The position numbers and the translations under genes are program-made. Below, piece after piece: positions 6,396-25,794 of a stretch of DNA of 26,160 bases. This DNA comes from Hydnum rufescens UP504. Taxonomy: Eukaryota; Basidiomycota; Agaricomycetes; Cantharellales; Hydnaceae. Position 1 is the stretch's first letter. Each line of letters starts with the position of its first letter. The DNA lies in the NCBI GenBank assembly GCA_014904985.1, contig MU128913.1:552678-578837 (forward strand). The letters are read 5' to 3'. Under the pieces are notes generated by a model. That model made no database searches, was not told where the DNA came from, and worked only from the letters and a program-made list of their open reading frames with translations.

Positions 6396-6404
6396 CTGAC
6401 CAGC

Positions 6405-6640: not shown

Positions 6641-6690
6641 CTGTTTTCATGGGTTTTTGTCATGCATTAGACCCCAGGCCTCAATCTAGA

Positions 6691-7278: not shown

Positions 7279-7279
7279 C

Positions 7280-7292
7280 TGGTTCCCTCTAG
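7280..7292 (+). promoter_or_regulatory. Candidate tRNA primer-binding site
   Basis: One base after the 5' LTR the sequence reads TGGTTCCCTCTAG. Primer sites begin TGG, complementary to the CCA end of a tRNA. I cannot assign the tRNA. Confidence 0.5.
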
Positions 7293-7318
7293 CCGACTGA
7301 GAGTTTGAACTGATCACT

Positions 7319-7947
7319 ATGGTTCTAACCAACCCACCACTCGAAGCGCCTCTAAAATCTGGACTCTACATGTCGTGGTCGATCCCAACGACCCCAGAAT
7401 CGAATACCACCCCACGACACGAGAATGTCTCGCTATCCCCGCACATCTGCGGATGCCAGGTCATCTGCAGGAGGTTATCAATCGCCTGGATGCCCCATTG
7501 GGCGAATATTGTCTCCCAGACACAGATGTGCCCATCATGCTCTACCAATTTCTCATGGCATGGGCGAAGTTCTCCCCATCCACATATTACGGTGAGTATT
7601 TCCAGCAGGATGAGGACACTGGGGCTTGGGCCATTGATCAGGAGATGAGAGCTCTGGTCCAGACGGGAGTAGAAGTGTTACAAGCTGTAATTACAGACTC
7701 CATACATCTAATGGGAGAAGAGAGGTATCCCTTCTACGTTGACAAAGAGCATGCCCTCAGCGAGAAGCTATGGACGTCGACTACGATCGAGGAACTGCGT
7801 ACAGCAGATAAACTGCTGAAGCTACAGGTAGAATTGACGCTCGCACGCCTAAAGAAACTGAAAAATCTACATCAAGGAATGCTACTGGCTACCCCTATGG
7901 CATCCCTCACCTCCCTCCCTCCTACTCCTGACCTACCTAGCGCCTAA
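7319..7947 (+). pseudogene. ORF1, accessory ORF upstream of gag
   Basis: ATG 7319 opens a frame that changes near 7370 to the frame running to TAA 7945-7947, giving about 200 residues in all. The protein has DPNDPRIEYHP near its start and a central part rich in Asp, Glu and Trp. Its C-terminus is Lys/Leu-rich and probably helical (KLLKLQVELTLARLKKL). Possible further coding traces (LDAYDAELDDHLNLQP, about 8099-8146) follow in another frame. I do not recognise the family. Its place between primer site and gag is where accessory or leader ORFs of large Gypsy elements lie. Confidence 0.5.
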
Positions 7948-9687
7948 AAGAACTGTGGGAGGACAAACGCCTCCCCATATGCAAGGTCGCCCGCTGAGCG
8001 GTTATGGTAGGGTGGGAGACCTACAATGCAAAATCCAGCAAGGGGAAGAGGTCCCGTATTCATGACACCACCTGTTCCTGGGTGCGTACGCGAAAAAGCT
8101 CGATGCATATGATGCAGAGCTAGATGACCATCTTAACCTCCAGCCCCTTCCACGTATATACACTGAGCCGTATGGTGTAAGCAAGAGAAAATGGGGGAAT
8201 CTCTGCCACAGTCCACGATATGGAATCGAGAACGAAGAATGGGGGCCACCAAAATAATCCGAATGTTCAGGTCCGAGTGTAGGAGGGTCTTTAGGATAGA
8301 AGATAATCCGCTGTCAGCAGTAGTTGCCCAAGCAGATGAATAAAGGGGAAATTATGCCACAAATCCCACACTCCAAGGTCCTAGTCTTGTGGCCTTAGAC
8401 AAAGTGTAGTAGTAGCAATGTCCTCAGATGGAATTCGCCCAGGAATCCAGCAGCAATACTTCAGTGCTTCAGACTGGGGAGGGGGAAGACAATGGAATTT
8501 TCAACACAATTCGCTTAATATACAACCCGGCTATGAGATCAAATATCCGATGGAAGCAGGGGGATAGGGGAAATATGTAGAAAAAGGAATCAAGTCAAAA
8601 GCTTCAAAACTGACAGAGATATTCAATTTACAAGTCTGGGGATAGGATAGAGCATAAAATGACTATTTCTCCTTCCCTTTTGGACAGATTCCCTTGAGGA
8701 ATGGTGGAATGAGTCGTCCTGAACGTCCTATCCTTCGGATATAAGGCTGCCGGACAATATTCGATATTTGAAAATTGGAAGGGGGAATGATGTTCTCCTG
8801 AGACAAGGGGGAAATTCGTATGTAGAACACCGAGTTCTTCTTCGTTCGTGACGCCCTTCATACCGCTGGATGGGCATTTTCAATACCTTTCTAGGCGCGG
8901 TCGTTTCATGCAAATCCGATCAAAACTGACGGAGAAATTCGAAAAATACACCTTCTTATTATGAATGAGCAGGTGAAATCGTTCCAGAAGCCTCAGTTCT
9001 GATCCGATGAACACGTAATCGGTATCATTCGATAGGTATTGATCACAGCTTTCAGGGCGCTATATTTACGAGTCGATCGGATACGAATTGACTTCGAAAA
9101 GCGGAAAATACTCCTTAAGAGCATGGATTCCATAGTAAAATCGTTCTAGAACGTGCAGTTTTCATCGGATTGACTCGTACTTGGTATCGTCGGATAGGTA
9201 TGAATCGTATCTTTCTGGGCGCTACTTTCCCGAGCCGATCCGATCAAAACTGACGGAGAAATTCAACGAATACTCCTTGAGAGTGCCGCATTTGCCCCTA
9301 TTTGATTATGTAATGCATCCGCGAGTAGGAATGAAGGCCCGGGTGTGTAATCCATCGTATTACATAATCACCATTCGTTAGGATCGCCCTTAAGGCAGCA
9401 AGATCCATATGAGCAGATTGAAGGAGAATTCAAGACGATATACAGAAGGGCAAGTTGAATTGCCGGGTCCACCATATCATGGCTTATGGTAGGGCATAAA
9501 TGAATACAGTCCCTGTGGCCTGTTGAAGACCCCAGGAGATTGACTCGTGTACAAGGAAATGAGCATTCCATTTACATCTTTTCAGGCATATGGAATTCAT
9601 GCTCATCCATGAACAGACAAAAGGCTTGATATTGGAACGACATATTGGTACATTTTTAATTTGTTCATCGGAAAATTCGACGCTGAA
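7948..9687 (+). other. Noncoding stretch between ORF1 and gag
   Basis: Apart from coding traces up to about 8200, I see no supported ORF. It is relatively A/T-rich with many CGAT words. It carries three diverged tandem copies of a 162-bp unit (listed separately) and the word CAAAACTGAC in several places (for example 8606-8615, 8930-8939 and 9245-9254). Confidence 0.55.
8893..9290 (+). repeat. 162-bp diverged tandem repeat, about 2.5 copies
   Basis: The anchor RGGCGC recurs at 8893, 9055 and 9217, exactly 162 bp apart. Copies 1 and 3 share GATCAAAACTGACGGAGAAA. Copies 1 and 2 share TCGTTCYAGAA, ATCGGAT/ATCCGAT and GATAGGTAT. Substitutions are scattered and the period is exact. Confidence 0.7.
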
Positions 9688-11860
9688 ATGGAACTCTATG
9701 TGGTAGGGATTTTTCCCTCCAACAACGGCCTGGGGCTTTTCATACCTCCCGAGGAGGAAGCTACCCCTCCAGCCACTAATAAGGGCAAAGGGAGGGCAGT
9801 AGCTCTTGAGCAAGGACTCAGATTAGGATTTGGGAGCCCGTCAATGCCAACTCCCCCCACTGAGCCCTCTCCGTCGCTCTCAGCAGTGCGGTATCGCACC
9901 TCTTCAGTGGATTGGGATGCCACGCCATCCCCTCCATCTAGTTGGAAGGACATCCCCTTGGATGAAGGCCCGTCACCTTCAGGGTCTACTCCCGAAGGAC
10001 TCCTCCAACAGACACCCCCATCAGCAATACGACGATTGGCAGGATGGTCCCAACGGGTCTCCACCATGGGGGAAGGGCTACTGAGTGCTATGTGGACCCC
10101 TACTAAAGCCCGTTCCACGTCACTGCAGACCCAAGGACAAGAACCGCCCCGGACCCCCGCATTACAGCGGATTGCCCGGTCTCCCCCAGGGGGAGGCCAT
10201 CAGGCTATGGCCCCCGAAGAGGTGGCTCCGAGTACGCCGCATACAGACTTTTTCATTGCGAAAGCTAACAATGAGTACGCGGACGTCAAGGACTACCTCT
10301 ATAGGGATGCTCCCTTCCTCCCCACTACCCAACATCTCGCTCGAGCCCACCACCGTTTCGCCTGCCTAATGGAGGAATCCATCACCCCATGGCTATACTA
10401 AAGGCCCCGGGCCCCATCCTACCTTCGGAGCCCACGATACGCATCCTCCCAAGGGAGCTAACGAGCAAAACGGTGCCCACATCATCTCTGGGCTCGGGAT
10501 GTGTGGGGACAAGTCCTAGTCCTCCCCACGTCTCGACACCCAGCCCCCAAGGATCGAAGGGTGATTCTGGAAAGCCTGACAGCCCAGGAGGAGGGGAAGA
10601 ACCGAATAACCTACCAGGTGGGAGCAGGGGACCCCCACCCCGCCAGAGCCCCTGAGTGGTGACCGGGGCCTGGAAGGGGACCAGACCCAGGGCCACAAGA
10701 CCCTAGAGGGCCACCTGTACCCCCAGACCCCCTGGACCCCCAGGGCTGCCAGGGCCACCAGGGCCACCGGGGCCTCCAGGAGGTGCTGGTGGTTTCTTTC
10801 AGCAGCTGCAAGGGCTTATATGGGATAACAAACTCAAGTGGTCGGTCGTTCCAGAATGGGATGGGGACCCGGAGACGGCCCTAGAGTGGATCCTAGCCTG
10901 CGATGACCTCGCTAACTTTGGCCCGGAAGTCGCGAGACTTCTCCCCCTGATAGCGTCATCTTGATTTAGAGGCGCCATAGCCTCAGCATGGCGAGCTCAC
11001 TCTCGTCCAATCCGCACTCCCATACTACAATCCTGGTGTAAGCTAGAGGATTGGGTGCTCAAACACTACCTAGGTGATTCCTGGGTTACAGCGCAGCACC
11101 TAATGTACAGTCAAGAGACCTTCCGAGGTGCAGCGCATCCCTACGAATCCCCAGCCCAATACATCCAGCAACGTATCCTCTGCGCCCGTCTCTTCTATCG
11201 ATTCCCAGTCAATAGCGCTGAAGAGACGGCGTCGATCATGGAGAACGCCCCTCTCCCTTGGAACCACATACTGCGCTGGAGTGAGAGGCCTCCCATCGAA
11301 GACGTGCTCGCTCTAGCTAAGCAGTACGAAGACACGCTAGTACAAGATTGGGAGGACAAACGACACCAACGGAGGAGACGCGAACGGAGCAGCACAAGCA
11401 AGCAAACCTCGCAGACATTGGAAGTCCCTCCTCTAGTAGCTCAGATTCCCTCCATTCAGAGTGGGAGAACAACGAGGAGGGCGCCTACGAGTACTCCGAT
11501 GCAGATACGATGCGTGAGGTTACTTCAAGAGCCCACAATGCGAACAAACGCCCATTCAAGCCCAGGAATAGAGATCAATTGGGAAAGCCATGGCTAGATT
11601 GTACAGTGGCAAGCACAGAGAAGACGTATCCGTACCCCCGCAATGATTCGGTCGTCAGCCACCATAAACCGGGGCAACATTGCTTCGCCTGTGGAAGTGA
11701 GAAACACTGGCTGCGTGAATGTCCCCACTACGGGGAATTCTCCAGCCGGTTGGACTGCAAAACGCTGCAGAAAGAGCATAGATGCTACGAATCTCTGCAA
11801 TACAAGGCCGCATATGCGGCATACATCGACGAACGAACGAACGGGCAGTCTTTTCAGTAG
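9688..11860 (+). pseudogene. gag: Gag (capsid and nucleocapsid) of the chromovirus
   Basis: Gag forms the virus-like particle and packages the RNA. ATG 9688 starts the N-terminal part, rich in Pro and Ser, in a frame open to 10401. After frameshifts comes a collagen-like Gly-Pro-Pro stretch (10740-10780). The capsid-like domain follows (LKWSVVPEWDGDPETALEW at about 10830, through YESPAQYIQQ and DTLVQDWED at about 11355), broken by TGA at 10962. The frame changes near 11390 into an acidic Ser-rich segment, then a CCHC knuckle CFACGSEKHWLREC (about 11683-11724; C-x2-C-x4-H-x4-C). That frame stops at 11858-11860. Start choice follows the first ATG before the recognisable N-terminus; the TTG-initiated extension upstream is not needed. 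Confidence 0.8.
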
Positions 11861-13037
11861 AGGAGCGGGGGACAATCACTCCACCACCTGTCTCCAGTGT
11901 AATTAAGAAGGAGCCTACATTCGTGGAGACATGTCCCGATCTGCTATATAATGTAAATACGATGGCAGGGACATTTTGGAAGGTTCCTCCAGCTACTTGA
12001 GCGCCCCTGAGGCCGAAGAAGCCACCGGACAAAGGGGAGGGAGATGACCAAACTGCAAGGACTGGATCAAGCATTGAGGCAAGGGAGGCCCCCAGGGGGC
12101 TGCAGCTGCCAGCAACGACAGGTGGAACAGCCCGCTCACAGAGGACGCGTGACCTGCAGAGCGAGCTGGCCAAAGGACAAACCGATCCCACCCCTGAGAG
12201 CAAATTCGCGCACTCACTGGGCCGGAAAGGAACCCCCATTCCCCGGGGCCTGAAGGAGGAGAGGTTTTCCCAGGAACGGGCCCAGTCCAGTGTGTAAAGG
12301 CACGCTCGATGCCTCAGGGTAGATCTGCCCTGGGCATAACAGCCCTCAGCGTTCTTGATGGCCACCTAGGAGACATGGAAGGACCAGCAATGCAGTTGCG
12401 CTTAGATTCAGGAGCAGATATTACGCTGCTGTCGGAAGAATGCTACCGTGCCCTTCCCTCATGACCCAAGCTCCAGAAGGGGATGAAACTCAATCTATTT
12501 GAGCTTACTAGTCAAGCGCGAATACTAGGCTTCATCAACCTTACCTTCTTGATGTGCTCAAAGGAAGGCCAATGGCTGGAATTTACGGAAGAAGCATACG
12601 TCATCCCAGGGATGAATGTACCAGTTCTTCTAGGGGAGGATTTCCAAGTCAACTATGAAGTCTCGGTCCTGCGCACAGCTCAACAGTCTACGTTGTCTAT
12701 TCGCCAGCCCCAAGGTGTATTTACAGTACAAGCCCACTCAACTCCGCCACCCGCCTTGAATGTGGAGGTGAAACCCAGACATCCAGAAGGAATACGAGAC
12801 AGGAACACGTACTTGGCAGCTACGCGGTGGGGCGGAACTCTGAGACCATGCCCCGCCCTACCACAAAAAGAGACCACCTCGTAAAGGCCGCCAAAGACGT
12901 CCGTATTCCCCCCAGGACACTCAGCGAAGATACGGTTACAAGGTCCATTCCAGGGGCAAGAGGAATGGCTCGTCGAGAAGATCATACTTCCTTCGAAGGA
13001 TGGGTACTTCTTGGCCTCTCCTTCTTGTCTGATATGA
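11861..13037 (+). pseudogene. pol: Gag-Pol linker and aspartic protease
   Basis: After the knuckle another frame continues as a Pro/Glu-rich linker to about 12297, interrupted by TGA at 11998. The protease follows in a third frame: the catalytic motif LRLDSGADITLLS lies at about 12396-12434. Further blocks are IPGMNVPVLLGEDF (about 12605-12646) and a downstream QEEWLVEKIILPSKDGYFL (about 12954-13010). Stops at 12462 (TGA), 12882 (TAA) and 13035 (TGA) break one otherwise continuous frame. The protease cleaves the Gag-Pol polyprotein and would act as a dimer. Confidence 0.75.
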
Positions 13038-13102
13038 TCCGATGACCCATTCCTCCTGGTCTCCAACCCTTCCCTTGGCCGAAATGGATACGGGCCAGAG
13101 AT

Positions 13103-14883
13103 ATGCTGGGAATCCTCCACGATCCAGACGAGTATTTTGACAGTGAGCTGGACGAGATGCAGTCCAGGAGATTACGAGCCTATGCATTACTGGTCCAGAA
13201 GATCGCCAAGGGTTCCCTAGGCGAACGGGATTTGGCAGAAAGACCGGCCAGGCAAACAGAAACCGACGAGACCATACAGGAGCCTGAGGAGCCTGATGAA
13301 TTGTGGGGCCCCAAGACGTCAGAGCCCCCAGATCCTACAATGTATCGAGAAGAAGACCTGGAAGCAATCGTCGATATCTCCCCGAGGCACCCCAGAAATC
13401 CGGAAGTGGACCTTCGCCTTGATCCGCAGACGTATTAAAGCATTCGGCTTCAACGACCGTCTGGGAACGCTAGAGACGATAGCCAAAATCCGCTTGAAGG
13501 GAGTGGACCCTATTTCTCTGCCTATGTATGGAGCGTCCCCAGCAAAAAGGAAGGTGATTGACGAGCAGATGGAGAAGTGGATCAGGCAGGAAGTCGTAGA
13601 GCCTTCCAAGAGTCCATGGGGCGCACCAGTAGTCATAGCGTACAGGAATGGGAAACCTAGGTTCTGTGTAGACTACTGCAAGTTGAATGCGCAGACCATC
13701 CCCGATGAATTCCCAATCCCCCGCCAGAAAGAGATCCTCCAGGCGCTATCGGGGGCACAAGTACTATCAGCAGTGGACACACTGAGTGGATTTCACCAGA
13801 TGAACATGGAAGACGAAGATAAAGAGAAGATGGCCTTCCGCTCTCATTGGGGACTGTGGCAGTTCAAAAGAATGCCATTTGGACTGCGCAACGGTCCCCC
13901 CATCTTCCAAAGGCTCATGCAGTCAATCCTATCGCCATACCTATGGATATTTGCCCTGGTCTACATCGATGATATAGTTATCTACTCGAAATCATATGAA
14001 GATCATCTGGAGCACCTGGACGTCGTACTTCAGGCATGCGAGGAAGCCCACTTGACGCTTGCACCAAAGAAATGCCACTTCATGTATACGTCAATACTGC
14101 TGTTGGGGCAGAAAGTGTCGCGGTTGGGCTTGTCTACACACAAGGAGAAAGTCCGCACGGTGGTCGACCTAGCTCGCCCCTCCACCCATTCGACCTTACA
14201 AACATTTCTTGGGATGGCGGTCTATTTTTCGCACTATATCCCATTCTACTCCGATCGAGCAGCCCCTTTATTTGACCTACTCAAGAAAGATAGACCTTGG
14301 GCATGGGAAGCCGAGCAAGAGCGAGCCTTCCAGGATATTAAGGAAGCGTTGACTCAAGCCCCAGTCCTTGGCCACCCGATGCAAGGGCTCCCCTATCATA
14401 TATACTCAGACACTTCGGACATAGCAATAGGAGCCAGTCTACAGCAGGTGCAGCCTTTAGAGCTTAAAGACCTGAAGGGTACAAAACTCTACGAACGAAT
14501 AAAACTTGCTTATCAGAAAGGGGAGCCCATACCCAAGCTAGTACGTCAAGCCTCAAAGCCACGAACAATGTCCCAGACCCAGGGTCTTGGCTAGCGAATT
14601 CGAGAAGATGATCGTTTTCATCGAACGAGTCATAGCGTACTGGAGCTGCTCACTAAAGAGCGCTGAGAGAAACTACTCAGCGACGGAACGAGAAGCCCTG
14701 GGAGTCAAAGAAGCACTCGTCCGCTTCCAGCCATTTGTAGAAGGAGAGAAAAATATAATCATCACAGATCACTCAGCACTACAATGGGCACGAACGTATG
14801 AGAACACCAACAGACGACTGGCGGCGTGGGGGCAGTGTTTGGTGCATTCCCAGGACTCGAAATCGTACATTGAGCAGGAGTGA
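13103..14883 (+). pseudogene. pol: Reverse transcriptase and RNase H
   Basis: An acidic linker (13103-13390) shifts frame into the RT. Blocks seen: VVEPSKSPWGAPVV, FCVDYCKLNA, AVDTLSGFHQMNM, MPFGLRNGPPIFQRLM and the catalytic YIDDIVIYS (13962-13988), then the thumb with FLGMAVYFSHYIP. RNase H starts at YSDTSDIAIGASLQQ (about 14402). It is interrupted by a charged insert of about 45 residues with a frameshift near 14570, then resumes with VIAYWS, ERNYSATEREAL and ITDHSALQWA (catalytic D, E, D candidates). Another frameshift near 14830 and TGA at 14871 precede a conserved THSNVDPLSRL end. The fingers and palm are intact in one frame (13440-14450). Confidence 0.93.
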
Positions 14884-16768
14884 CTCATTCGAATGTTGAC
14901 CCCCTGTCAAGGCTAAGCAGAATTCCGCTGCACGAGTCGCCTGTGGAGGATTCAACGCTGTCTCTACCAGCTCCACTGCCCGACCAACTCCTGCAGGCAT
15001 GGGAAGCGAACCTGGAACGAATGCCGGTGCAGAAAGCAGCCTTCTTAATGACGAGGGTGCAGTCCAGGACTGTACCCGAATCGAAGGAAGTGCGAGAGGG
15101 TAAACGAAGCTCCATGACCACGGAAGAAAGGCTAGAGAAGGAAATGTCTCGAGCCGTGCAGGAAAGGAGCAGGAAGGCCAACCTCCAGGAGGGAATGGCT
15201 TCCTTGCGGCCTATCTATCAACATAAGCCCTGGGAGACTCCTAGCTTTTGTGAAGGGCTATAAGGAGGATCCAAGCTTCAGTCAGGCCTGGGGGGCTGCG
15301 GAGCCAGAGGGAGCAGAAGTCTCGGCTGCCCAATGGTTCTATAAGTCATCAGAAGGACTGCTCACCTTCTGCGATGCAGATTGGGTAGCAAGGCTATGCG
15401 TCCCAAGATCAGAAGTCCAGCGCCTGCTGTGCGAGACCCACGATAGCCCATGGGAGAGCGCCCATGCAGGCTTGTCCTGCCTCTACCACCGCCTAGCCGC
15501 CCGATTTTACTGGCCCAGGATGTGGGCCGACATTGTCCAGTTCACGAGAACCTGCAACATATGCCAGAAGACGAAGCCAGATAAGCGGGGCCTAACGGCA
15601 AGCTGCTGCCCCACTCGATCCCATTACTACCTTTCAAAGTCATCTCACTAGACCTTATCACAGGTCTTCCCAAATCATTAGGCCACGACGCAGTACTCAT
15701 GATCGTGGATAAGCTCACGAAATACATACAATACGTCCCTATGGTCTCGACACTGAAGCAGGAGGGCTTCGCCAGATTATTCATCGACCATGTGGTCTAC
15801 AAGTATGGCATACCCAAACGAATGATTGCTGACAGGGATGCGCAGTGGGCCAAAGCCTTCTGGGCTTCGGTAGCTAAACACCTGGACCTAAACCTCCTGC
15901 TCTCAACTTCCCATCACCCTCAAACCGACGGGCAGACAGAGAAAGCCAACGATACCCTGGAGGTGGTGCTCAGAGCATACATCGCAGGTAATAGGGGAAA
16001 CTGGGCACAGTGGCTGGGACCTCTGGCATCTGCCTATAACTCCACCCCCCACTCCTCTACGGGATACTCACCGGCCTTTCTATTGATGGGCTATTCCCCT
16101 CGCACAGGCGCACAAGCCATCGACCCCGTTCCGCGAGGGATACAGCGACTCTTTACTCACAGTGCAGCTGCAACACCCTTCATTGAAGAGTTGGAAGTCC
16201 ATCGAACTAAGGCAAGAGATGCGTTGGTGCGAGCACAAGCCAGGCAAGCGTGAGCGTACGACATGAAGAGTAGAGAAGAGGAATTCGAGGAAGGGGATGA
16301 GGTCCTCCTCAACCCTCACTCATTAGAGCTGGTGGATGTTAAAGGCACAGGACGCAAGCTCCTGCAGCAACGCGTAGGGCCTTTTACGGTCACCGAAAAA
16401 TTAAACCCGGTCGTCTATCATTTAAACATTCCGCCAGAATATAAGCTGCATCCCATCATTAACATACAGCACTTGACAAAATATTACAGAGCCCCCAACG
16501 AGAGCGAGCACGTGAAATTGCCCGACTTAAGAGAACTAGCAGCTGAGGAAGAGTACGAGATAGAAAAAATAGTGGGACATCGCTATAACGCTAGCCGGAG
16601 GCATAAGGAATACCTAGTGCGTTGGAAAGGTACGGCCCTGAACATGACACGTTTGAACCTGAAAGTGCTCTCTGCAACACGTTTTTGAGACTAAGGGAAT
16701 ACAAAGGAAACGTGGCCACTGGGAGCCCTGGCGAAGCTGCAGGCGGAGATCCTGGAGCGGAGATATAA
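14884..16768 (+). pseudogene. pol: Integrase with C-terminal chromodomain
   Basis: A charged linker (14880-15263) leads into the zinc-binding HHCC domain: HDSPWESAH at about 15440, and CNIC at about 15553. After a frameshift near 15590 comes the catalytic core: ISLDLITGLP (about 15645), IADRDAQWAKAFW (about 15825) and GQTEKAND (about 15930) supply the D, D and E. The C-terminal domain (LLNPHSLEL, VGPFTVTEKL, HPIINIQHLTKY) follows after TGA 16251. The chromodomain runs from YEIEKIVGHRY (about 16555) through YLVRWKG (about 16610). After a frameshift near 16630 it ends with a TFEPE block, where most chromodomains have TWEP. TAA is at 16766-16768. The chromodomain would direct integration toward particular chromatin. 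Confidence 0.93.
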
Positions 16769-16818
16769 GCCATGAGTATACAACGAGGCAACACTCACCT
16801 ATCCTAGCTAACCCCACT

Positions 16819-18024
16819 ATGTCATCCGAGCAGGAGTCACAACGACACTTGGGAATTTGGGAGGGTCGCCGCTATGTGATGCCAGGGAAGAACACCGACC
16901 GTGACGATTACGACCATGAGCAATACACGGATTGGCTGGACAATCCCGCCCAAAGGCCAGGCGATAGCCCAAGCCTCCCACGTTCTGCCCAGTTCTTCGA
17001 CTACGAAATACGCACTCTTAACCTCCCAGGCCCTCTCCCAAGAGTGCAAGGACTTCCACCGTACCACAGCGATCCGTATGGCTACAGGGGGGCGGACTTG
17101 GACGAATGGGGGCATTTGGGGAAGTTCGACTGGACGATGAGAACCCAGCTTCTCCCAACAAGCAGCCCTTTCCCCATTCACCAAGCCTGTATCCCGCTCG
17201 ATCTTCATTCCTTCGACTTCAACCCGCGTTTACACCTCATCGCATCTACCGGCCCCAGGCCTGATCTTTTCACATTAGCCGCAGGCTGCGTCCAATACCT
17301 GCATATGTCAGGTTCAATTGTACTAACGAACATGATGAAGCTCGAGAGCTCAGTCAGGGAAAATGCCCTTACCTTACCTTCTTCGCGGGACCCCGATTGG
17401 CACTTCGGACAGTTGTGGTTCACTCTACTGGGACAGGCCATCCAGCCTGCCCCTCCTTGGAGGATCGTGCAAATTGCACAGGAGCTGTGCCAGCGACTCA
17501 TGGACAGCCTGGGATTCCTAACCTTGGGAATCCAATTCCTCCTGTATTTCAGGCTATACTGGGGACAGTTTCACCCCCTGACCTTCCGCTCTATGGTATG
17601 CCAAACGGGGCTAATGGTCAGGGTCAGCGACGCGCGCTTGAGGCTCATCGGTGAAAGTCTAGCCGAGCTGGGAGTGCCAGTGTGGACCATCCACGAGGCT
17701 AACTCCCAGCCACCCATGGAGCTCTTCCCTCGAGGCTCAGCGGAAGAATCACCCCTCTGGGCACGAGCCTGGGCCCACGCTGAGGAGCACTTCCCTTCAT
17801 GCTGGTTCGGCGAAGGGTTCACGCGGGAGAAGATGCAGGTGCAATTCCATAGGGAATTGGGCTGGGCTATCACGACACAGGAGGTACTGAGACCGATGGA
17901 TCTTTGGGTGGTACGCCCAGGGCATGCCACTGAAGCACCAGCGCCAGGCCCCACCATCGCTTCCATGGAGCCAATTACAGGTGGCCCAGGGGAGAAAAGG
18001 ACGAGGTCTATGTGGCAAGGATGA
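16819..18024 (+). CDS. ORF2, accessory protein of the chromovirus, 401 aa, intact
   Basis: ATG 16819 lies 51 bp after the pol stop; the frame is open for 401 codons to TGA 18022-18024, the longest undamaged ORF outside pol. The N-terminus is acidic and Tyr/Pro-rich. The middle has a hydrophobic stretch (LGFLTLGIQFLLYF, about 17508-17550), too polar around it for a confident membrane span. The C-terminal part has Trp-rich blocks (WARAWAHAEEHFPSCWFGEGF). I see no envelope-like signal peptide, cleavage site or membrane anchor, and do not recognise the family. Its survival without a stop, while gag and pol carry many, is notable but could be chance. It is probably expressed from the same or a spliced retroelement transcript. 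Confidence 0.6.
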   Translation: MSSEQESQRHLGIWEGRRYVMPGKNTDRDDYDHEQYTDWLDNPAQRPGDSPSLPRSAQFFDYEIRTLNLPGPLPRVQGLPPYHSDPYGYRGADLDEWGHLGKFDWTMRTQLLPTSSPFPIHQACIPLDLHSFDFNPRLHLIASTGPRPDLFTLAAGCVQYLHMSGSIVLTNMMKLESSVRENALTLPSSRDPDWHFGQLWFTLLGQAIQPAPPWRIVQIAQELCQRLMDSLGFLTLGIQFLLYFRLYWGQFHPLTFRSMVCQTGLMVRVSDARLRLIGESLAELGVPVWTIHEANSQPPMELFPRGSAEESPLWARAWAHAEEHFPSCWFGEGFTREKMQVQFHRELGWAITTQEVLRPMDLWVVRPGHATEAPAPGPTIASMEPITGGPGEKRTRSMWQG

Positions 18025-19379
18025 TCCGCTGGCTGATGAGCACGAAGGAGCCTAATACCATGGCAGTCCTCCGGGAGATGCAGGAGGCGTTAGGGAAGGA
18101 GACTGTCTCCCTTAAAGAGCTTGCGGATTGGAAATGCTACAAACCCCCGCTACCACTATTCCATGAAAACTACGAGACCTGCAAGAGGTGGGCTGAGCGA
18201 AACCAAGGGAACTGGATTGCTCCCCGATGTTCCCCGCTTTCCTCCACACTGCCCCTCTGTGCCAGCAGTTAGTGGACCCGTATGCCCGCCCTTACGGGGC
18301 CCACCAGACCTGCTAGAACGTATCGAAGCGGATCCCTTATACCCTTCGGCCCCACGGAACACGCCACGCCCTCCTCCTCCACCGATCCCAGCTGCACCTA
18401 TGGCCGAGGATCCCCCGTCCTTTGAAGACGTGAATCCCCCGTCTTCCGAGGACGTGAATCTCCCGCCCTTTGAAGACTTTTCGGCACCCCAGGAGTCCCG
18501 GGAGGAGGTCCCGTCGCCATTGGGGGCGGAGCCGGGCTCATCGACCATTGGAACCGAGGCTGATTGGGATGACGAATGCGTTCGTGCAGGGACTTTCCCA
18601 GTACACCTCACTCCTTTCCTCTATTTCGGGTCCGAGGACGAACTGGAACGTGAACTATTCGAGAAGTACAGCCCCTACGTACACGTGTGGCTCCGTCTCC
18701 TACGAACGACTATTATCGCTTACAAGGATTGGGACCGGGCCCTCCTAGCAGTTCAGAACCAAAGAGTGGTGTTTCTCCAATACCCTGCCAAACCCTCGGC
18801 TGCAGGGATACACCCCAGCATGATTCCTGGCACTCTGCGAGAGTTCAGCCCTAGAGCTAAGGCCGAAGTCATACAGAGAATATGAGTGAGAGGCAGGGAA
18901 CGCCTTGAAAGCTTCCCAATCCCCTTGGACCCCCAAGGGAATCCCTTGCACCCCATCCCTCACTTTCAGCGGGAAGAATTGATCCTTCTATTACATGGAG
19001 TGACGAGCCTCCCACCCAGGGTGCGGGGCTCTAGCTCCGACTAATGTCGCGGTATGCGCTCTCGCCGGCCTTCCTTATCGAACGGATTCATCAATTCCAC
19101 ACTCTGGGGCCAACGTCCTCGGCCTCGCAGTGAAATCAAGCTGCGGATTTAGAGGCCCTCCTTTGTAAGCATCTCTCCTATGTCTCCCCTTTGGGTTTCT
19201 CGGTCCCTTTGGACTCCACCAGCATCATCCATAAATTGCTGGCTTCCGCTGCGCATACCTCACCCCTGGTCTCCCCCACATTGCTACTAGCCCGTGGCAC
19301 TTACGACACGGAATACTTCAGATGGGTAAGCGCTCGGGAGGTCTACGAAATTGTATTGGACGAAATATTGGCGGACTAG
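18021..19379 (+). pseudogene. ORF3, second accessory ORF after pol, broken
   Basis: ATG 18021 overlaps the ORF2 stop as ATGA. The first part (MIRWLMSTKEPNTMAVLREM) shifts frame near 18230. The next part is Pro-rich, with a threefold FEDVN/SEDVN/FEDFS repeat (18420-18480). A more folded-looking segment follows (ELERELFEKYSPYVHVWLRLL, then TTIIAYKDWDRALLAV). TGA at 18883 is followed in frame by coding sequence to about 19040. After a further shift and TGA 19131 come ALLCKHLSYVSPLGF and EVYEIVLDEILAD, ending at TAG 19377-19379. In all about 450 residues; family unknown. It ends 30 bp before the 3' LTR, so it fills the element's 3' end. Confidence 0.55.
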
Positions 19380-19399
19380 CCGTCACACTTAGTATATAC

Positions 19400-19409
19400 A
19401 GGGGGGCAC
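19400..19409 (+). promoter_or_regulatory. Purine-rich tract before the 3' LTR
   Basis: AGGGGGGCAC sits directly against the TGTAGTA start of the 3' LTR, the position of the plus-strand primer. Confidence 0.6.
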
Positions 19410-19958
19410 TGTAGTATAGCGATTATGTAATAGTAGTGTACATACGTTGCGTGATGTTAGGGAGCTGCCGCAGCGAACCCATGGCTTCTCCTGTCGAATT
19501 CTACGTTGTTTTTACTCCCCAGTGCGAGTCGAAGTAACATGCCATTCATAGGAACGCAAGAATACGAGAGCCGAGCAGTGAGTACTCACTATCGGCTAAG
19601 CTACTAACAAATCACCATTCCAGGTAACCCTCTGCCTTCTTCTGTTGCCCATCCACTCCACTTCCACATGAGGCCAGGCCAAACGGGAAGTGAGATTACT
19701 ACCTAGCCAGGCTAGGTAGGATCTTCGAGTCAGTCGAACTAAGGATGCGCTACGAAGCACGCCCCTTGCTATGCCCTCCTTGAACTTGCACGACTGCACT
19801 CATTCGAGCTGCTCATATCGCCTGCTTTGCCTATTTCCCTCGTATCCTACCTCCTTGCTTTGCCCTTCCGTATCTCCCTACGCACTTCCCTAGGCTATGT
19901 GTTCAACTACCCTCAGTTCACGACGGTTTACTCGTCCAATTTATAGTACTTTATTACA
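19410..19958 (+). repeat. 3' LTR
   Basis: 549 bp, colinear with 6730-7278. By hand, 32 substitutions: 31 transitions and one transversion (C/G in the GAGSCC word near 6992). Most transitions fall in CG, TG or CA dinucleotides. It is followed at once by the right GGCAC duplication (19959-19963). Confidence 0.95.
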
Positions 19959-20058
19959 GGCACAAAAAGAGCAGCTTCACTGCTCTTTTTGTGCCATTGT
20001 ATCTACAAGAAAAAAAACTCACCTTATGACCACACACCCGATGGGCGGGTGTGTGGTC
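19959..20058 (-). other. Array unit L (inverted), hairpins and donor
   Basis: Minus-strand copy. The exon hairpin is 20028-20058 (13-bp stem, loop ATGGG); donor GTGAGT at 20022-20017; the intron hairpin is 19959-19995 (16-bp perfect stem, 5-nt loop). The branch site and acceptor lie across the Gypsy insertion at 6691-6729. Confidence 0.75.
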
Positions 20059-20823
20059 GCACGCTTGCCTTTTCGGGCTGTTATTTGTTGTGGTTGGAGA
20101 TGAGAAGGAAGATGCGAAATTCAACACCGGCAATTGCCGATACTGAAGAAGCACCCAAGTGCCAGCACTACAAGCACAGCACACCTCAATAGCAAGCATG
20201 TAGATATAAAATAAATACTATGTAATAAATATTTGTCCAATAAAATGTGAAGAAGAAGAAGATAATGAGTCAGAGCTCAATAAGGGATGATATGCCTCAT
20301 TGCAAAGTGGATTGGGTTGCTTCCATGCATCAGAATTGGCCCAAATATAAATATAGTGATGGCATATATACACCCTATATGGGCGACTAATTATATTGGA
20401 CAATTGTGGCATTTTTCAATTTTTCACACCTTCAATTCCCTATTTAGGGAATTGAAGGCATGAAAAATTGAAAAATGCCACAATCGTCCAATATAATTAG
20501 TCACCCATATAGGGTGTATATATGCCATCACTATATTTATATTTGGGCCAATTCTGATGCATGGAAGCAACCCAATCCACTTTGCAATGAGGCATATTGT
20601 CCCTTATTGAGCTCTGGCTCATTATCATCCTCATCTTCACATTTTTAAACAAATATTTATTATATATTCTATATTCCATGTCTACATGCTTGCTATTAAT
20701 CTGGATTGTACTTGTAGCATCAGGACTTAGGTGCTTCTTGAGTATCAGCAATTGCCAGTGTTGAATTTCGCAAGTACGCAGCCACACACCCAGCAACAGA
20801 AAGGCGAGCGCCCAACCATGACA

Positions 20824-20867
20824 CAACAGCAATAGCAACAGCAGCAACAGCAACAGCAACAGTAGCA

Positions 20868-20898
<31 letters not shown>

Positions 20899-20915
20899 CA
20901 ACAGTGGCAGCCCCA
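20824..20915 (+). repeat. CAG/CAA trinucleotide tract
   Basis: About 30 triplets of CAG, CAA and a few AGT or AAT variants. It could read as polyglutamine on the plus strand and as Leu, Val/Ala or Cys runs on the minus strand. It is present only in the right arm of the palindrome, so it expanded or inserted after the arms formed. Confidence 0.9.
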
Positions 20916-20925
20916 GTGCATGACC

Positions 20926-21068
20926 ATGACCACACACCCACATCAGCAGGTGTGTGGTCATAAGGTAAGTTTTGTCTCAGTAGATACAATAGCGCAAAAA
21001 GAGTAGCCCAAGCTACTCTTTTTGTGCTGCTGTGAATTTCTATACTAATGAAACTTTTATTATTCCAG
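20926..21068 (+). other. Array unit 1: exon hairpin and hairpin intron
   Basis: Exon hairpin 20926-20961 (13-bp stem ATGACCACACACC). Donor GTAAGT 20965. Intron hairpin 20992-21027 (stem GCGCAAAAAGAGTAGC with loop CCAA; the inner pair here is T-A where other units have C-G). Branch ATACTAAT (about 21043) and acceptor CCAG (ends 21068). Intron 104 nt. Confidence 0.75.
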
Positions 21069-21185
21069 ATCGAAACTAAAACCAACGATGGGCCACCCAA
21101 TGAGTGGCCCCAGGCAAATGAGGCCACAGCAAACAAAATCGGGGCAAATGAAACAACCAAATGAAGGCACAAGAGGCGGCGACAC

Positions 21186-21327
21186 AAACCACACACCTGC
21201 TGTGGTGGGTGTGTGGTTTAACACAATGTAAGTCATTGTACACACCCAACGACACAAAGAGAGCAGCCCTGGCTGCTCTTTTTGCATTCGTTTTAATTTT
21301 TAACTAACACATAATTTATTATTCTAG
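21186..21327 (+). other. Array unit 2: exon hairpin and hairpin intron
   Basis: Exon hairpin 21186-21219 (12-bp stem AAACCACACACC). Donor GTAAGT 21228. Intron hairpin 21255-21284 (stem CAAAGAGAGCAGCC with one G-T pair). Branch AACTAAC, acceptor TTCTAG ending 21327. Intron 100 nt; the exon before it, 21069-21227, is 159 nt. Confidence 0.75.
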
Positions 21328-21449
21328 GCTATTGCTTGAATCACCTGCCAAATGAGATGCCAAAATGCATTGCACCAAGAACACCCCCCCCCCCAGACAA
21401 AACCTGGGAATGGGAATGCACAACGCGAGGCCCCAGGGGTCCCAGACAA

Positions 21450-21583
21450 ACCACACACCTGCCAAAGCAGGTGTGTGGTAATTCCACAGTAAGTACAACC
21501 ACACAAAAGGAGCAGCATATGCTGCTCCTTTTGCATGGCCTTTCTGTTTTCTTTTTTCTTTGTTACTGACGTATTATTTCTAG
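21450..21583 (+). other. Array unit 3: exon hairpin and hairpin intron
   Basis: Exon hairpin 21450-21479 (13-bp stem ACCACACACCTGC, loop CAAA). Donor GTAAGT 21489. Intron hairpin 21504-21533 (stem CAAAAGGAGCAGC, loop ATAT; G-C replaces A-T at one pair). Branch TTACTGAC, acceptor TTCTAG ending 21583. Intron 95 nt; the preceding exon is 161 nt. Confidence 0.75.
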
Positions 21584-21691
21584 GTTGTCATCTGAACTCA
21601 GGACCCATGACCCTGATGAACAAACATGGGAGAACAACAACCCACCCACCAAATGAGACCCACGAACAGCAACAACACAAGTGCTGGACAA

Positions 21692-21836
21692 ACCACACAC
21701 CCGCTTCGGCAGGTGTGTGGTAATATTAGGTACATCTACTAGTAATCCCATCAGTGCAAAAAGAGCAGCAGAAGCTGCTCTTTTGGCACCTCTGTTTTCT
21801 TTTTTTTTACTAATGTATTATTATTCATTGTTCTAG
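21692..21836 (+). other. Array unit 4: exon hairpin and hairpin intron
   Basis: Exon hairpin 21692-21721 (10-bp stem). Donor GTACAT 21730, weaker than the others. Intron hairpin 21754-21789 (stem GTGCAAAAAGAGCAGC, one mismatch, loop AGAA). T-rich tract, TTACTAAT branch, acceptor TTCTAG ending 21836. Intron 107 nt. Confidence 0.75.
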
Positions 21837-21941
21837 GTCCCTTCCCTATGTGAAAACCCACACATTGTCAGGATCAAATTGACATTTGCTTCCGCCTAAG
21901 GACTTACCCGTCAGAGTATTATTCTTCATCGACTCTATCAT

Positions 21942-22319
21942 ATGGCGCCTACTTCCTCAAATGCTCTTGTCTCCTCTCTCCCTCCATTCACTACGGGGGT
22001 TATTGTCATCCTTGCCATTATTGGCATTTCTCTTATTATTATTGCCCTTGTTCTATCAGGCCTCGGCCAGCGGGCTATGGGCTGGGTAGCCAACCAGTGG
22101 CAGCATTGGCGCCCTTGTCAGCACCTGTCGTTCCCTTGCTCCCCACGTGAGTCCATGGAGTTGCCAATCCAGACTCCCCCTCCTCCTCCTCTACCCCCAG
22201 TCCCTGAATCCACATCACCTGTCCCAATCCGTACTCCATCCACGTCATTACGGTCATTTGACACTTTGGACACCTTTGTAGTACCCAGGCGTACACTGCC
22301 TTGGAAGTACATACGCTAA
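21942..22319 (+). CDS. Small single-pass membrane protein ORF inside the solo LTR, 125 aa
   Basis: ATG 21942 to TAA 22317-22319. A strongly hydrophobic helix (residues about 19-41, GVIVILAIIGISLIIIALVL core) follows a polar Ser/Thr/Pro N-terminus. After it come Trp-rich and then Pro-rich segments (SPxP repeats with six prolines in a row) and a basic end. It looks like a signal-anchor protein. I do not recognise a family. ORFs this long with a clean membrane segment are uncommon inside LTRs, but chance cannot be excluded. Confidence 0.4.
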   Translation: MAPTSSNALVSSLPPFTTGVIVILAIIGISLIIIALVLSGLGQRAMGWVANQWQHWRPCQHLSFPCSPRESMELPIQTPPPPPLPPVPESTSPVPIRTPSTSLRSFDTLDTFVVPRRTLPWKYIR

Positions 22320-22567
22320 GGGGGATACATATGGAAGTTGGGGCATAGCCATGTGGAGGTGCGCACAGGATTCGTAACACGGCTGCATCAGCTTAGTAAG
22401 GCTTAGTGATGGTGGCTGTGGAGGCTGACTGATGGGCTGTGGAGCCGGCATTCTAGGAGGATCCGGAAGGTTATGGAAGACGGCGGAAGGCTCTGGAAGG
22501 TTGGAGGCTGTGTGCAGGAAATAGTATTTATAGCCCTTCGCAGTTGGGGGATCACCAGTTTTGATCT

Positions 22568-22648
22568 CTCAGGATTCCCACTGCGATAGGTGCGAGACTT
22601 GTGTGTCCCTTGTTGTGTGGTGTATACTCAGGATTCCCACTGCGATAG
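22568..22648 (+). repeat. 22-bp direct repeat in the solo LTR
   Basis: CTCAGGATTCCCACTGCGAT plus AG occurs at 22568-22589 and 22627-22648, identical, 59 bp apart, just downstream of the TATA-like box. Confidence 0.85.
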
Positions 22649-22786
22649 CGTGTGGTTAATTAATCTCTTTCCTCTTTCTGTTTGTGGCTTCGACGGCAGT
22701 GTCGCCCTGACACACATGGATGAGCCACCCAAGCCCCAAGTGCCCGCCCCCTGAACATGATGATCAACAAGATCAACAAAATCACA

Positions 22787-22953
22787 TACCACACACCTGC
22801 TGCGGCGGGTGTGTGGTAATACCTTGTAAGTTTTTAATTACAGGATGTAGGAAAGCACCAAAAGAGCAGCAAGAGCTGCTCTTTTGGTGCTTCCTTTGTT
22901 TTTTTTTTTAATTCTAAATCAACATGTTATTTACTGATTGATCCATCCCCCAG
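22787..22953 (+). other. Array unit 5: exon hairpin and hairpin intron
   Basis: Exon hairpin 22787-22818 (11-bp stem TACCACACACC). Donor GTAAGT 22826. Intron hairpin 22853-22892 (18-bp perfect stem, loop AAGA). T10 run, TTACTGAT branch-like site, acceptor CCCCCAG ending 22953. Intron 128 nt, the longest. An AATTACAG at 22836-22843 is too near the donor to serve as acceptor. Confidence 0.7.
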
Positions 22954-23068
22954 TGCGAAAACCCCCTGCACAAAAAAGGGATGTGTGCAGCCACCTGCAA
23001 CCCACAACCCGATCCAAGAGCTCAGTGCCCGAACACCCACAATGTATGCAACAACAGATGAAATACAG

Positions 23069-23208
23069 TACCACACACCTGCTGCCATGGGTGTGTGGTA
23101 ATAGCTAGTGAGTTTCTCATACAATGGCGCCCAAAGAGCAGCAGTAGCTGCTCTTTGGGGCTGCTTCTGTTTTTTTTTTTCAAACTAACATATCATTGAT
23201 TATTCTAG
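23069..23208 (+). other. Array unit 6: exon hairpin and hairpin intron
   Basis: Exon hairpin 23069-23100 (11-bp stem). Donor GTGAGT 23108. Intron hairpin 23130-23159 (13-bp stem CCCAAAGAGCAGC, loop AGTA). T11 run, AAACTAAC branch, acceptor TTCTAG ending 23208. Intron 101 nt. Confidence 0.75.
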
Positions 23209-23310
23209 ATCTCCCCTCAATGCACGAAACCCCACCTCCAAGATGAAAAAGAAATGTGCGCAGCCACTCGCAACCCGATCCAAGAACCTGTGACCGCGGG
23301 CCAAAACAAG

Positions 23311-23456
23311 TACCACACACCCACCGAAGCAGGTGTGTGGTACTACAAGGTATTTTTATTTTATTTTCTATATCTACAGTGATGCAAAAGGAGCAGCACA
23401 AGCTGCTCCTTTTGCATCACTTTGAATTTTTTTACTAATGTGTATGATTATTTTAG
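23311..23456 (+). other. Array unit 7: exon hairpin and hairpin intron
   Basis: Exon hairpin 23311-23342 (11-bp stem). Donor GTATTT 23350. Intron hairpin 23379-23420 (19-bp perfect stem GTGATGCAAAAGGAGCAGC, loop ACAA; the longest stem). Branch TTACTAAT, acceptor TTTTAG ending 23456. Intron 107 nt. Confidence 0.75.
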
Positions 23457-23596
23457 AAGCTCCCAAAATGACAACCCACCCCAGCGACAACCCACGACCC
23501 ATCCAAACGACCTGCCCAACAGTGAACTGCTGAACCTTGCCCCCCCCCCCAATGGCCACCAATGAGCTGACCGAACCCCCGATCAAGCAATGGAAA

Positions 23597-23686
23597 GCAC
23601 CACACACCCCTTAGGGCGGGTGTGTGGTGCTACTAAGTATGTTTTTTTTTTGAATTTTTAACTTATATTTAATTATATTTTCCTAG
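23597..23686 (+). other. Array unit 8: exon hairpin, intron without hairpin
   Basis: Exon hairpin 23597-23630 (12-bp stem GCACCACACACC). Donor GTATGT 23637, then a T9-10 run, AACTTAT, acceptor TCCTAG ending 23686. The intron is 50 nt and lacks the second hairpin. Its length equals a hairpin intron minus the hairpin and its flanks. Confidence 0.65.
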
Positions 23687-23793
23687 ATTCTTGTGCAATA
23701 GATACCACCCAACACCCCAGCAGTGTGTCCCCTGAACCCGCATCTGAACACCAGGCAACCCCCATCCCAACTTCTGAGGAAGCAATGGACAGT

Positions 23794-23826
23794 ACCACAC
23801 CTGCTAGGGTGTGGTCTTTTTTTATT
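23794..23826 (+). terminator. Array unit 9: terminal short hairpin with T-run
   Basis: An 8-bp stem ACCACACC..GGTGTGGT (23794-23815) is followed within a base by a run of seven or more T, then AATAAA-like words (about 23838-23850). No donor or second hairpin follows. It looks like the array's 3' end; hairpin plus T-run and the polyadenylation-like words are both compatible with termination. Confidence 0.45.
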
Positions 23827-24205
23827 GAATTTTTAAATAAAATAAATACATGTACATAAGTTAATAAGAACAAAAGATGAGACTGCTGAACAAATACTGC
23901 CCCCACCCGGGTATGTATGATCATAATGATAATAAATAAATAATTATAAATGGGACACAAGAGGGAATATAATAATAATAATGGTGATTAACCCTGATAA
24001 GCCTGCATAGCTCAAGGTCATGTAAGTCTAAGGCTTGATCCTCTAAGTCCTAGTTTCGGCCAATTTTCGGCCATTTCAGCCAATGCTGGGCCAGGAGGTG
24101 AAATCATAAAAATGGCCATTTCGGCCGAAATAGTGATGGGACCCACTTAGGTACCATTATCTGCCCAGAAGTGGTACCTAACTAGGTAGGCTTAGATGAC
24201 TGACC
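23827..24205. other. A/T-rich spacer with inverted repeats, no gene
   Basis: It contains AATAAA/ATAAT simple repeats (about 23838-23990). Repeated TTTCGGCC/GGCCATTTC words occur in both orientations (24053-24130). There is also a hairpin TTAGGTACCA..TGGTACCTAA (about 24147-24183). The break of the second Gypsy element at about 24206 abuts this segment. Confidence 0.5.
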
Positions 24206-24739
24206 AAGGTGGATAAGTCCGAGATACTCCACAGTTGCAGCTCCAAAGGTGCACTTTTCAGCCTTGAAGAACAGATTATTTTCTTGCAGGATTTGGAGGA
24301 CCTTCTGGACTACCTCATAGTGTTGTGTGAGTGTTTCAGTAAAAACCAGAATATCATCCATGTACACAGCTACCACTCCTTCTGCAACAAGATCTTTGAA
24401 GAGGTGATTCATCATGGTTTGAAAGGTGGCAGGGCTATTAGTCAGCCCAAAGAACATGACAAGTGTTTTGAAGAGTCCTCAGTTGGTGCAGAATGCTGCC
24501 TTCCATTTGTCTCCTTAGTGCATCTGAATATTGTTGTAGCCCCATCACACATCCAACTTGGTGAAGAACTTGGCCCAAGTGACTCAATTTAAGATGTCTG
24601 TCACCAGGGGGAGAGGATAAGCATTTTTCACTGTAGCAGCGTTGAGCTTCCAATAATCCTGGACAAAGTGTAGGCCTCCATCCTTCTTCTTAACAAAGAA
24701 GACAGGGGCAGCTATGGGTGACTTGGATGGCAGATTCAT
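24206..24739 (-). pseudogene. pol: Reverse transcriptase fragment of the second Gypsy element
   Basis: The frame from 24739 reads [20 protein letters not shown], then [19 protein letters not shown], then AKFFTKLDV..WGYNNI, then FFGLTNSPATFQTMMN. The catalytic VYMDDILVF (about 24350) and AEKCTFGAATVEYLGL complete it. Stops interrupt the first part: TGA after DILN, TGA after KLDV, TAA after NIQMH and TGA after FCTN. Three of the four are TGA, again where family members usually have Arg or similar. Similarity ends right after EYLGL. Confidence 0.9.
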
Positions 24740-25429
24740 CCAGTCTCTAGGTGCTCCTTCAAGAAGGCATCCATCTCTTGCTGCTCATTGGGGGATAATG
24801 GGTATAATTTCACCCCAGTGTGCACAATGTCCTCTTTTAGCTCAATAGCGGGATGACATGGGGGAAGGCAATCAAAGGATTCCTTAGCAAAGACATCATG
24901 GAAGTTGTGGTACTGTTTGGCACCATTTCTTCAAAGGGGCACTTCTTAAAGGTCTTCTTATGCTGCTCAATGGCAAGGCAGGTGGATATAGATTCAGTTG
25001 CAGAGATATGCTCTTCAGGGTGAAGGAAGACTACAAAGATACAATCTTCCCCATGCACATCTTCCCGGTTATCACCAGGTGAGCTCTTGCCCATTTTCTT
25101 TGATAGAATACCTGGACTAGGCTTTTCTATTAAAGAGGCAGGCAAGGGCACAGTCTGGTCAAGGGAAGACAATGGGGATGAGTCGTGGTGTGGCAAATTT
25201 CTATCACCCTTGTGATCCCCCTTGGGCCTCAACTGTTGGGGTACACCCTGGAGATGCCCATCTCTCACGTTTGCCCAGAGGGACCAACTGGGCAAAGGTA
25301 GGATAGGGTCTCCTTGGCAACTGTGCAATGGAAGAGGATCAGGGGGAGATACAGATGCAGAGAGGTTAAGGCTTCATCCAGAGTGTTCCTTTGCTAAGAC
25401 AACACAGATGCCATCGCAACCCACATCCA

Positions 25430-25794
25430 TCAGGACACTGTGTCATTGCTACCTTTACCCATTGACCAGTTGATCTCAGGGTTATGATGAACAAGCCAGG
25501 TGTGCCCTACGATGAGGGGAACCTGTCCCAGGCTGGTCACAGCAAATGTACTTTTCTCTGAATGGTCACCAAAATGCATCAGGAGGTCAACTTCTTCTTG
25601 AACTGAGCCAAGGTTGTTAAGGGTGCCATCAATGTTGTAAAGTGGAATCAGCCACAGAAGTTGCTGAATAGTAAGATTTTTGGCTTTGACAAACTCCTGA
25701 TCAATGAACATCCCTGTTGCTCCTGAATCAAGCAGGGCATCAACTGCCATAGGCTGGCCACTGTCTAGGGTCTGTAGGTGGACCTTTAGTTCAG
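25430..25794 (-). pseudogene. pol: Aspartic protease region of the second Gypsy element
   Basis: Minus-strand frame with LDSGQPMAVDALLDSGATGMF: the DSGAT motif (about 25726-25712) is the catalytic centre. Further on come LIVGHTWLVHHNPEINW, the usual Gypsy protease end. A frameshift near 25450 moves the following Cys-rich block (CPDGC) to another frame. The downstream linker (24837-25328) stays open but has no recognisable domain. Confidence 0.8.

Follow-up and report, generated by a model that had tools for sequence, protein, structure and literature searches.

A dispersed palindromic, foldback-like element of Hydnum rufescens with arms of tandem exon-intron-like units bearing two covarying hairpins

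The closest described counterparts of the element reported here are the foldback (FB) elements, in which the inverted arms consist of tandem units. Tetris of Drosophila virilis, in the accessible part of its description (PMC4079207), has tandem repeats of ~220 bp in its arms, a middle domain and no coding capacity; Galileo is another FB-like element with long inverted-repeat arms of tandem units. Fungi also possess introners and sequence-similar stwintrons, which the accessible portions of two reports (PMC8469720, PMC12403724) present as families whose introns are alike and internally symmetric. We analysed a stretch of 26,160 nucleotides from the basidiomycete Hydnum rufescens UP504 (assembly GCA_014904985.1, contig MU128913.1, positions 552,678 to 578,837 of the forward strand; hereafter "the window"), in which a sequence-only reading had noticed, at 20926-23820, a tandem array of exon-intron units with two hairpins (A and B) around each 5' splice site. 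We find that this array, rather than being a single locus, forms the plus-strand arm of a palindromic element that is dispersed in the genome, here called the hairpin element.

As far as the accessible descriptions go, the hairpin element has in common with Tetris and the FB elements its inverted arms of tandem units, an apparently non-autonomous character and many rearranged copies. Unlike in Tetris, the repeated unit resembles an exon plus intron and bears two covarying hairpins, outward-facing tetraloops and directional splice signals, and at least one copy forms a palindrome from end to end. From introners and stwintrons, as presented in those portions, it is distinguished by the repetition of whole exon-intron units within one dispersed element. 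Arms of inverted tandem repeats are familiar from the accessible accounts of foldback-like elements, and the exon-intron arm unit is the new aspect; a search of the published literature, mostly without subscription journals, turned up, among the records listed, no element with an exon-intron arm unit bearing tetraloop-capped hairpins. We consider it probable that the array belongs to a palindromic foldback-like element that has no recognisable protein gene, and whose arms would each be read outward as a multi-intron noncoding RNA.

Architecture and dispersal of the hairpin element

The arm contains eight plus-strand units with hairpin A and a short ninth, terminal hairpin, in agreement with the sequence-only reading. 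Each predicted intron begins at its donor, and five of the eight donors are GTRAGT, also as reported earlier. Unit 1 (20929-21068) comprises hairpin A at 20929-20958 and an intron at 20965-21068 with hairpin B at 20997-21022; the corresponding parts of unit 2 (21188-21327) are 21188-21217, 21228-21327 and 21257-21282, those of unit 3 (21450-21583) are 21450-21479, 21489-21583 and 21506-21531, and those of unit 4 (21692-21836) are 21692-21721 (with a UUCG loop), 21730-21836 and 21759-21784. Beyond a foreign insertion follow unit 5 (22788-22953; hairpin A 22788-22817 with a UGCG loop, intron 22826-22953, hairpin B 22860-22885), unit 6 (23070-23208; 23070-23099, 23108-23208 and 23132-23157, respectively) and unit 7 (23312-23456; 23312-23341, 23350-23456 and 23387-23412). 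Unit 8 (23599-23686) has hairpin A at 23599-23628 and a donor at 23637 and lacks hairpin B; its acceptor lies at 23686 by manual reading and at 23754 according to the script. The earlier statement that every unit has hairpin B therefore holds for seven of the eight units (0 expected from 100 shuffles) and fails for the one at 23599. The short last hairpin, a T-run and an AATAAA-like stretch (23793-23860, plus strand) are kept in other copies and likely mark the 3' end of the outward transcript.

A mirror arm, absent from the earlier account together with the centre, runs on the minus strand from position 20443/20444. Its first unit (19960-20058, minus strand) has hairpin A at 20029-20057, a GTGAGT donor at 20022-20017 and hairpin B at about 19960-19994. 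The palindromic centre (20113-20772) was delineated by inverted self-alignment at 88%, its core arms forming an inverted repeat at 20400-20442 and 20445-20487, and likely acts as a two-way promoter region. A CAACAG-rich repeat lies in the predicted first exon (20824-20904), and its reverse complement was seen in another locus (L049). The right terminus of the element, GGTAGGCTTAGATGACTGACCAAGGTG, is exact in the window at 24185-24211 (plus strand), where the element ends.

Searches of the genome with window sequences (63.2 Mb, 539 contigs) demonstrate that these components are dispersed. The segment 22700-23830 has at least 252 matches (best 40 of 1464 candidates scored). The centre occurs at at least 40 places (best 40 of 645 candidates), each time on both strands, and in several loci, e.g. 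L012 and L013, it is flanked by hairpins in the order B-A / A-B. Allowing one change, the terminus GGTAGGCTTAGATGACTGACCAAGGTG is present in 16 of the 20 loci fetched by array likeness, with differing bases beyond it; allowing 2 mismatches, it is present at 346 genome sites, as opposed to 0 for the reversed control. Hairpin A matches 3642 sites and hairpin B 3507 (reversed control 0 in each case), counts that refer to exact patterns, variants excluded, and in which every site is matched on both strands, the patterns being palindromic.

Among the three copies that were read with both ends (L041, L042 and L043), L043 is palindromic over its whole length, 3613 nt that match their own reverse complement at 98.1%. 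L042 (4544 bp, with the same A/B units) is nearly so: its arms match at 92%, and its centre is self-inverse at 95%. The ends of L041 are inverted repeats of 579 nt at 99.7%, and its interior is rearranged, part of it being repeated in direct orientation. L041 and L043 represent a second subfamily, which has the termini in common with the hairpin-array element and a different arm; a donor-like GTGAGT followed by a B-like hairpin stands beside the centre of L043. This subfamily suggests conserved ends between which the content of the arms varies. The arm of L043 (1850-3660) contains the motif CACCTCTG five times and 8 local stems of at least 7 bp (1-6 in ten shuffles). Since the dispersed copies, the fixed terminus and the palindromic copies are all observed, and the long inverted-repeat arms carry internal tandem repeats, we call the element foldback-like. 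The earlier suggestion of a repeat whose copies carry splice signals is borne out in this form.

Hairpins, loops and splice signals as possible signs of RNA

Within the window, conservation between units is concentrated in the hairpins, in accord with the earlier remark that only they and the splice signals are kept. For the seven units with both hairpins the mean pairwise identity is 0.85 in hairpin A (0.53 after shuffling) and 0.82 in hairpin B (0.52), and it falls to 0.55 (0.48) in the segment between A and B and to 0.67 (0.60) in the 60 nt after hairpin B. Five exon bodies are as dissimilar between units as shuffled sequence (0.58 and 0.59, respectively). This pattern, with introns that have hairpin B and splice signals in common, might be expected if each hairpin-bearing intron were a mobile unit inserted repeatedly, i.e. 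an introner-like family, as had been proposed. However, the exonic hairpin A repeats as well, so that the repeat is exon plus intron, and in the loci read, which were fetched by array likeness, the units form ordered, mirrored arrays within one element. The introner-like proposal thus finds no support there, and we regard it as very improbable.

To characterize the unit family we surveyed 200 A-donor-B units from 26 sequences, on both strands and with duplicates included, which correspond to 61 lineages at the chosen threshold. In 52 distinct sequences of the hairpin B stem, 92.0% of the cells are paired, with 76 double-change cells as compared to 26.4 in shuffles; in 49 distinct sequences of hairpin A the values are 91.6% and 35 as compared to 12.5. 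In slid controls 29-61% of the cells are paired. Because the repair of palindromes could also yield covariation, we examined strand-specific signs. The four-base loops of hairpin B are of the GNRA class (GAAA, GCAA, GTAA, GGAA, GAGA) in 41 of 190 cases when read outward and in 1 of 190 when read inward, with an outward excess in 18 sequences and an inward excess in 0. The inner loop of hairpin A is of the UNCG class (UGCG, UUCG, UACG) in 55/166 cases outward and 4/166 inward (outward excess in 19 sequences, inward in 2). Both classes are stable tetraloops favoured in nature, according to the accessible part of PMC4615370. With one unit per lineage the asymmetry persists for GNRA (16/54 vs 1/54) and for UNCG (19/49 vs 1/49), although the counts are not independent, as lineages share ancestry.

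The splice signals are directional as well. GTRAGT occurs within 20 nt after hairpin A in 95/200 units on the outward side (mean of 1.5 in shuffles) and in 0/200 on the inward side, and hairpin B is followed by a branch-like motif and YAG in 152/200 units (48 on average in shuffles). The median predicted intron is 105 nt among units with full donor, branch and acceptor patterns. Taken together, the strand-specific loops and the outward-only donors favour RNA over DNA cruciforms, and with the covariation they support that part of the earlier proposal of a structured noncoding RNA gene in which the arm is a predicted RNA gene.

The tetraloops are commoner in CpG-rich units, which are likely the younger ones: UNCG is found in 41/79 CpG-rich vs 14/87 CpG-poor units, and GNRA in 30/95 vs 11/95. 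Conversely, the forms expected from CpG decay are commoner in the CpG-poor half, both those derived from UNCG (34/87 vs 8/79) and those derived from GNRA (40/95 vs 25/95). Throughout the arms, more than half of the between-copy substitutions outside the hairpins are C to T or G to A, many of them at CpG, a pattern that methylation-driven decay of silenced elements would produce. The CpG ratio per copy ranges from 0.02 to 0.41.

Several results weigh against an RNA function of the arms. Recent stem changes in near-identical copies comprise 42 G-U and 37 A-C mismatches, and in the same copies the transition spectrum is equal in stems and linkers (p=0.83). Per lineage, the mismatches of hairpin A are also balanced (G-U 22 vs A-C 21), while those of hairpin B are not (36 vs 18). 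The outward fold of hairpin A is the more stable one in 31 lineages and the less stable in 26 (p=0.92). For hairpin B the outward fold is favoured (39 vs 21, p=0.002), but nearly the same bias is obtained with DNA parameters (37 vs 22), hence the energy test does not separate RNA from DNA. The pair-type counts for hairpin B are modestly above those of shuffles (25/500 shuffles reach the value). By the patterns used, only 127/200 units have a complete set of donor, branch and acceptor. In the window copy itself, GNRA is found in 0/7 four-base B loops, and UNCG in 2/7 A loops outward and 1/7 inward (UUCG in unit 7). To the same side belong the shared ancestry of the lineages mentioned above and the target-site duplications, none of which was seen by eye at any of the three both-ended copies. 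Since the stem changes show no purifying selection, the present copies look dead; once inserted, they appear to decay as inactive transposon copies do, with no sign of constraint.

Some of these observations would suit hairpins that act as DNA, be it as binding sites for a transposase or for replication proteins or as cruciforms, with incidental splice signals. Perfect 10-bp inverted repeats at fixed spacing are suitable for dimeric DNA-binding proteins, and template-switching in palindromes can create compensatory changes too; the lack of RNA-strand bias among recent changes and of energy bias in hairpin A, and the persistence of the hairpin B bias with DNA parameters, point in the same direction. 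A purely DNA-level role fits poorly with GNRA and UNCG loops that face almost exclusively outward, with GTRAGT donors restricted to one side and with the excess of branch and acceptor motifs, and we therefore regard it as unlikely. Arms that represent a decayed protein-coding gene with a repeated exon, in which CpG decay has turned CGA codons into TGA stops, seem to us quite unlikely. Of 186 exon bodies, 103 are open in one frame (HTP...GVW, which extends across hairpin A), as compared to 63 and 72 in the other two, and in L042 an open repeated frame persists in some adjacent exons. Nevertheless, the exon bodies are T-poor (11%), because of which stops are fewer in every frame; variable exon sites exhibit no consistent codon-position bias; and most deletions are not multiples of three (those that are amount to 4/35 in exons vs 6/33 in introns for 10 aligned copies, and to 3/11 vs 1/8 for 6 others). 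The dissimilarity of the exon bodies in the window also argues against a protein. A coding interpretation of the L042 exons, which at first looked partly open, was abandoned, as neither the indels nor the codon positions supported it. The earlier claim that exon lengths are not multiples of three is half right: of the six exons that do not cross the inserted solo long terminal repeat (LTR), those of 161, 146 and 154 nt are not, and those of 159, 141 and 180 nt are, one of which belongs to the three exons named in that reading.

Other screens returned little. L041-L043 contain 17 frames that reach 90 aa, and the eight of them that were scanned have no Pfam domain; the longest frames are 177 aa (L041), 164 aa (L042) and 122 aa (L043). 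The window has 0 Rfam matches at gathering score. At E-values up to 1, L042 and L043 give 35 matches, none reaching its gathering score; of these, 28 are microRNA-precursor models on the long central palindromes and were taken as chance. The terminus has 0 matches in viral contigs, and hairpin B occurs in 5 of them, at one site each. Of 127 intron-less junctions, such as retrocopies would have, searched for in the fetched loci, the two strict matches are one and the same gapped alignment at 80%, which appears twice since the window is also among the loci, as L001. A looser screen yielded 132 spanning matches, and the ten shown are partial and 78-85% identical.

Termini, insertion sites and neighbouring transposons

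With regard to their ends, copies of the hairpin element can be compared to two superfamilies of DNA transposons. In the accessible part of PMC12730594, Kyakuja elements of Agaricomycetes, which belong to the KDZ (Kyakuja-Dileera-Zisupton) group, have CA..TG termini, as does the hairpin element, 7-bp duplications and no inverted repeats. The hairpin element has extreme inverted repeats, no 7-bp duplication in the three both-ended copies and no recognised transposase; in particular, no KDZ transposase was found in the eight scanned frames, and the KDZ domain of the window belongs to a separate element that ends at 6405. According to the same part of that source, EnSpm/CACTA elements have CAC..GTG ends, into which the termini CACC..GGTG of the hairpin element fit, and 3-bp duplications, none of which was seen in the three copies. 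Nor were duplications of 8-10 bp, given for Tetris in its accessible description, seen in these copies.

The KDZ element of the window ends with ...GGCTGACCAGCCTG, and 10 of its 14 terminal nucleotides are identical to those of the hairpin element. The score of this terminal likeness is reached by 1/5000 plain shuffles and by 91/2000 dinucleotide-like shuffles, and it is exceeded by one further 80-mer from the window, so the likeness is only suggestive. The KDZ end ...CCTG is identical in 12/12 fetched KDZ loci, including the window, with differing sequence beyond. Among relatives of the KDZ protein of the window to which an organism name is attached, the closest come from Hydnum rufescens. 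Positions 1-6405 of the window are part of this multicopy transposon, and within it a fragment of a lactate/malate dehydrogenase NAD-binding domain (64-630, minus strand) looks like a captured gene piece. In four of the twelve KDZ loci, one of the twelve being the window, the 3' flank consists of hairpin-element sequence (L029, L034, L035 and L039). According to manual reading, the junction with KDZ lies right at the predicted 5' splice site in L034 and L039, and at a hairpin-A-like sequence in L035. A target preference of KDZ for the hairpin element is possible in this small sample.

In the window, the mirror arm has been disrupted. Its remnant at 6406-6729 (minus strand), which matches arm sequence of other copies, is truncated on the left by the KDZ transposon, the 3' end of which is at 6405, and on the right by an LTR retrotransposon (6730-19958, plus strand) with RVT_1, RNase H-like and integrase zinc-binding domains. 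This foreign insertion in the left arm is bordered by the duplication GGCAC (6725-6729 and 19959-19963). The right arm is interrupted by the solo LTR at 21866-22712, bordered by the 5-bp duplication CACAT (21861-21865 and 22713-22717), which agrees with the earlier description of a solo LTR inside the array. For the flank to the right of the element (24212-24800), at least 40 genome matches were scored, one of them the window's own; 34 of these 40 begin at the first base of the flank, so that the hairpin element probably sits inside another repeat. An open reading frame at 25430-25750 (minus strand) resembles a retroelement protease by eye and has no Pfam match.

The L043 site lacks 8.9 kb that are present on contig C196, and therefore flanks may have been lost by recombination between copies. 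We rejected the interpretation of C196:16799-25702 as a larger allele, since the segment is target sequence missing at the L043 site; of the at least 154 genome-wide KDZ matches (best 150 of 584 candidates), none of those listed lies inside it. For L041 no empty site was recovered, its left and right flanks matching different contigs. In L042, the right flank (4595-4644) resembles hairpin B of another family copy, and the left flank is not the piece that would match it. A further copy on C212 has the left terminus and no right terminus at the predicted place, and one on C34 has neither terminus at the predicted places. A pair of termini 12.3 kb apart on C65, considered as an autonomous partner, turned out to be pieces of two different copies and was rejected.

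Proposed working of the element and its meaning

We propose that transcription would start near the centre and proceed in both directions, outward through each arm; both arms would then give RNA of the same sense and no antisense. Hairpin A would close each exon at its 3' end and be retained after splicing; among the less decayed units, roughly half have a UNCG-type loop in this hairpin. Hairpin B, within each predicted intron of ~105 nt, would likely bring the donor and the branch site close together and leave with the spliced-out intron, its loop often being of the GNRA type. Splicing would leave capped hairpins strung along U-poor, unconserved linkers, an RNA that likely would serve as a repeated protein-binding platform. 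The element would presumably move by means of a transposase supplied in trans. More tentatively, we suggest that its payload may be the RNA itself, i.e. a chain of UNCG hairpins from which GNRA hairpins are spliced out, its units amplified to thousands within one genome, and that the element might need this RNA to spread or to escape silencing.

To our knowledge, accounts of foldback-like elements usually centre on the repetitive inverted arms and assign no role to the arm repeats. If the arms of the hairpin element are indeed intron-rich RNA genes under structural selection, the retention of tandem-repeat arms would become a testable question. The two hairpins that surround a 5' splice site would then also be available in thousands of natural variants, which would provide a test of how stable tetraloop hairpins guide the recognition of introns in fungi. 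The hairpin element would, in that case, be a mobile element built around a structured, intron-rich RNA.

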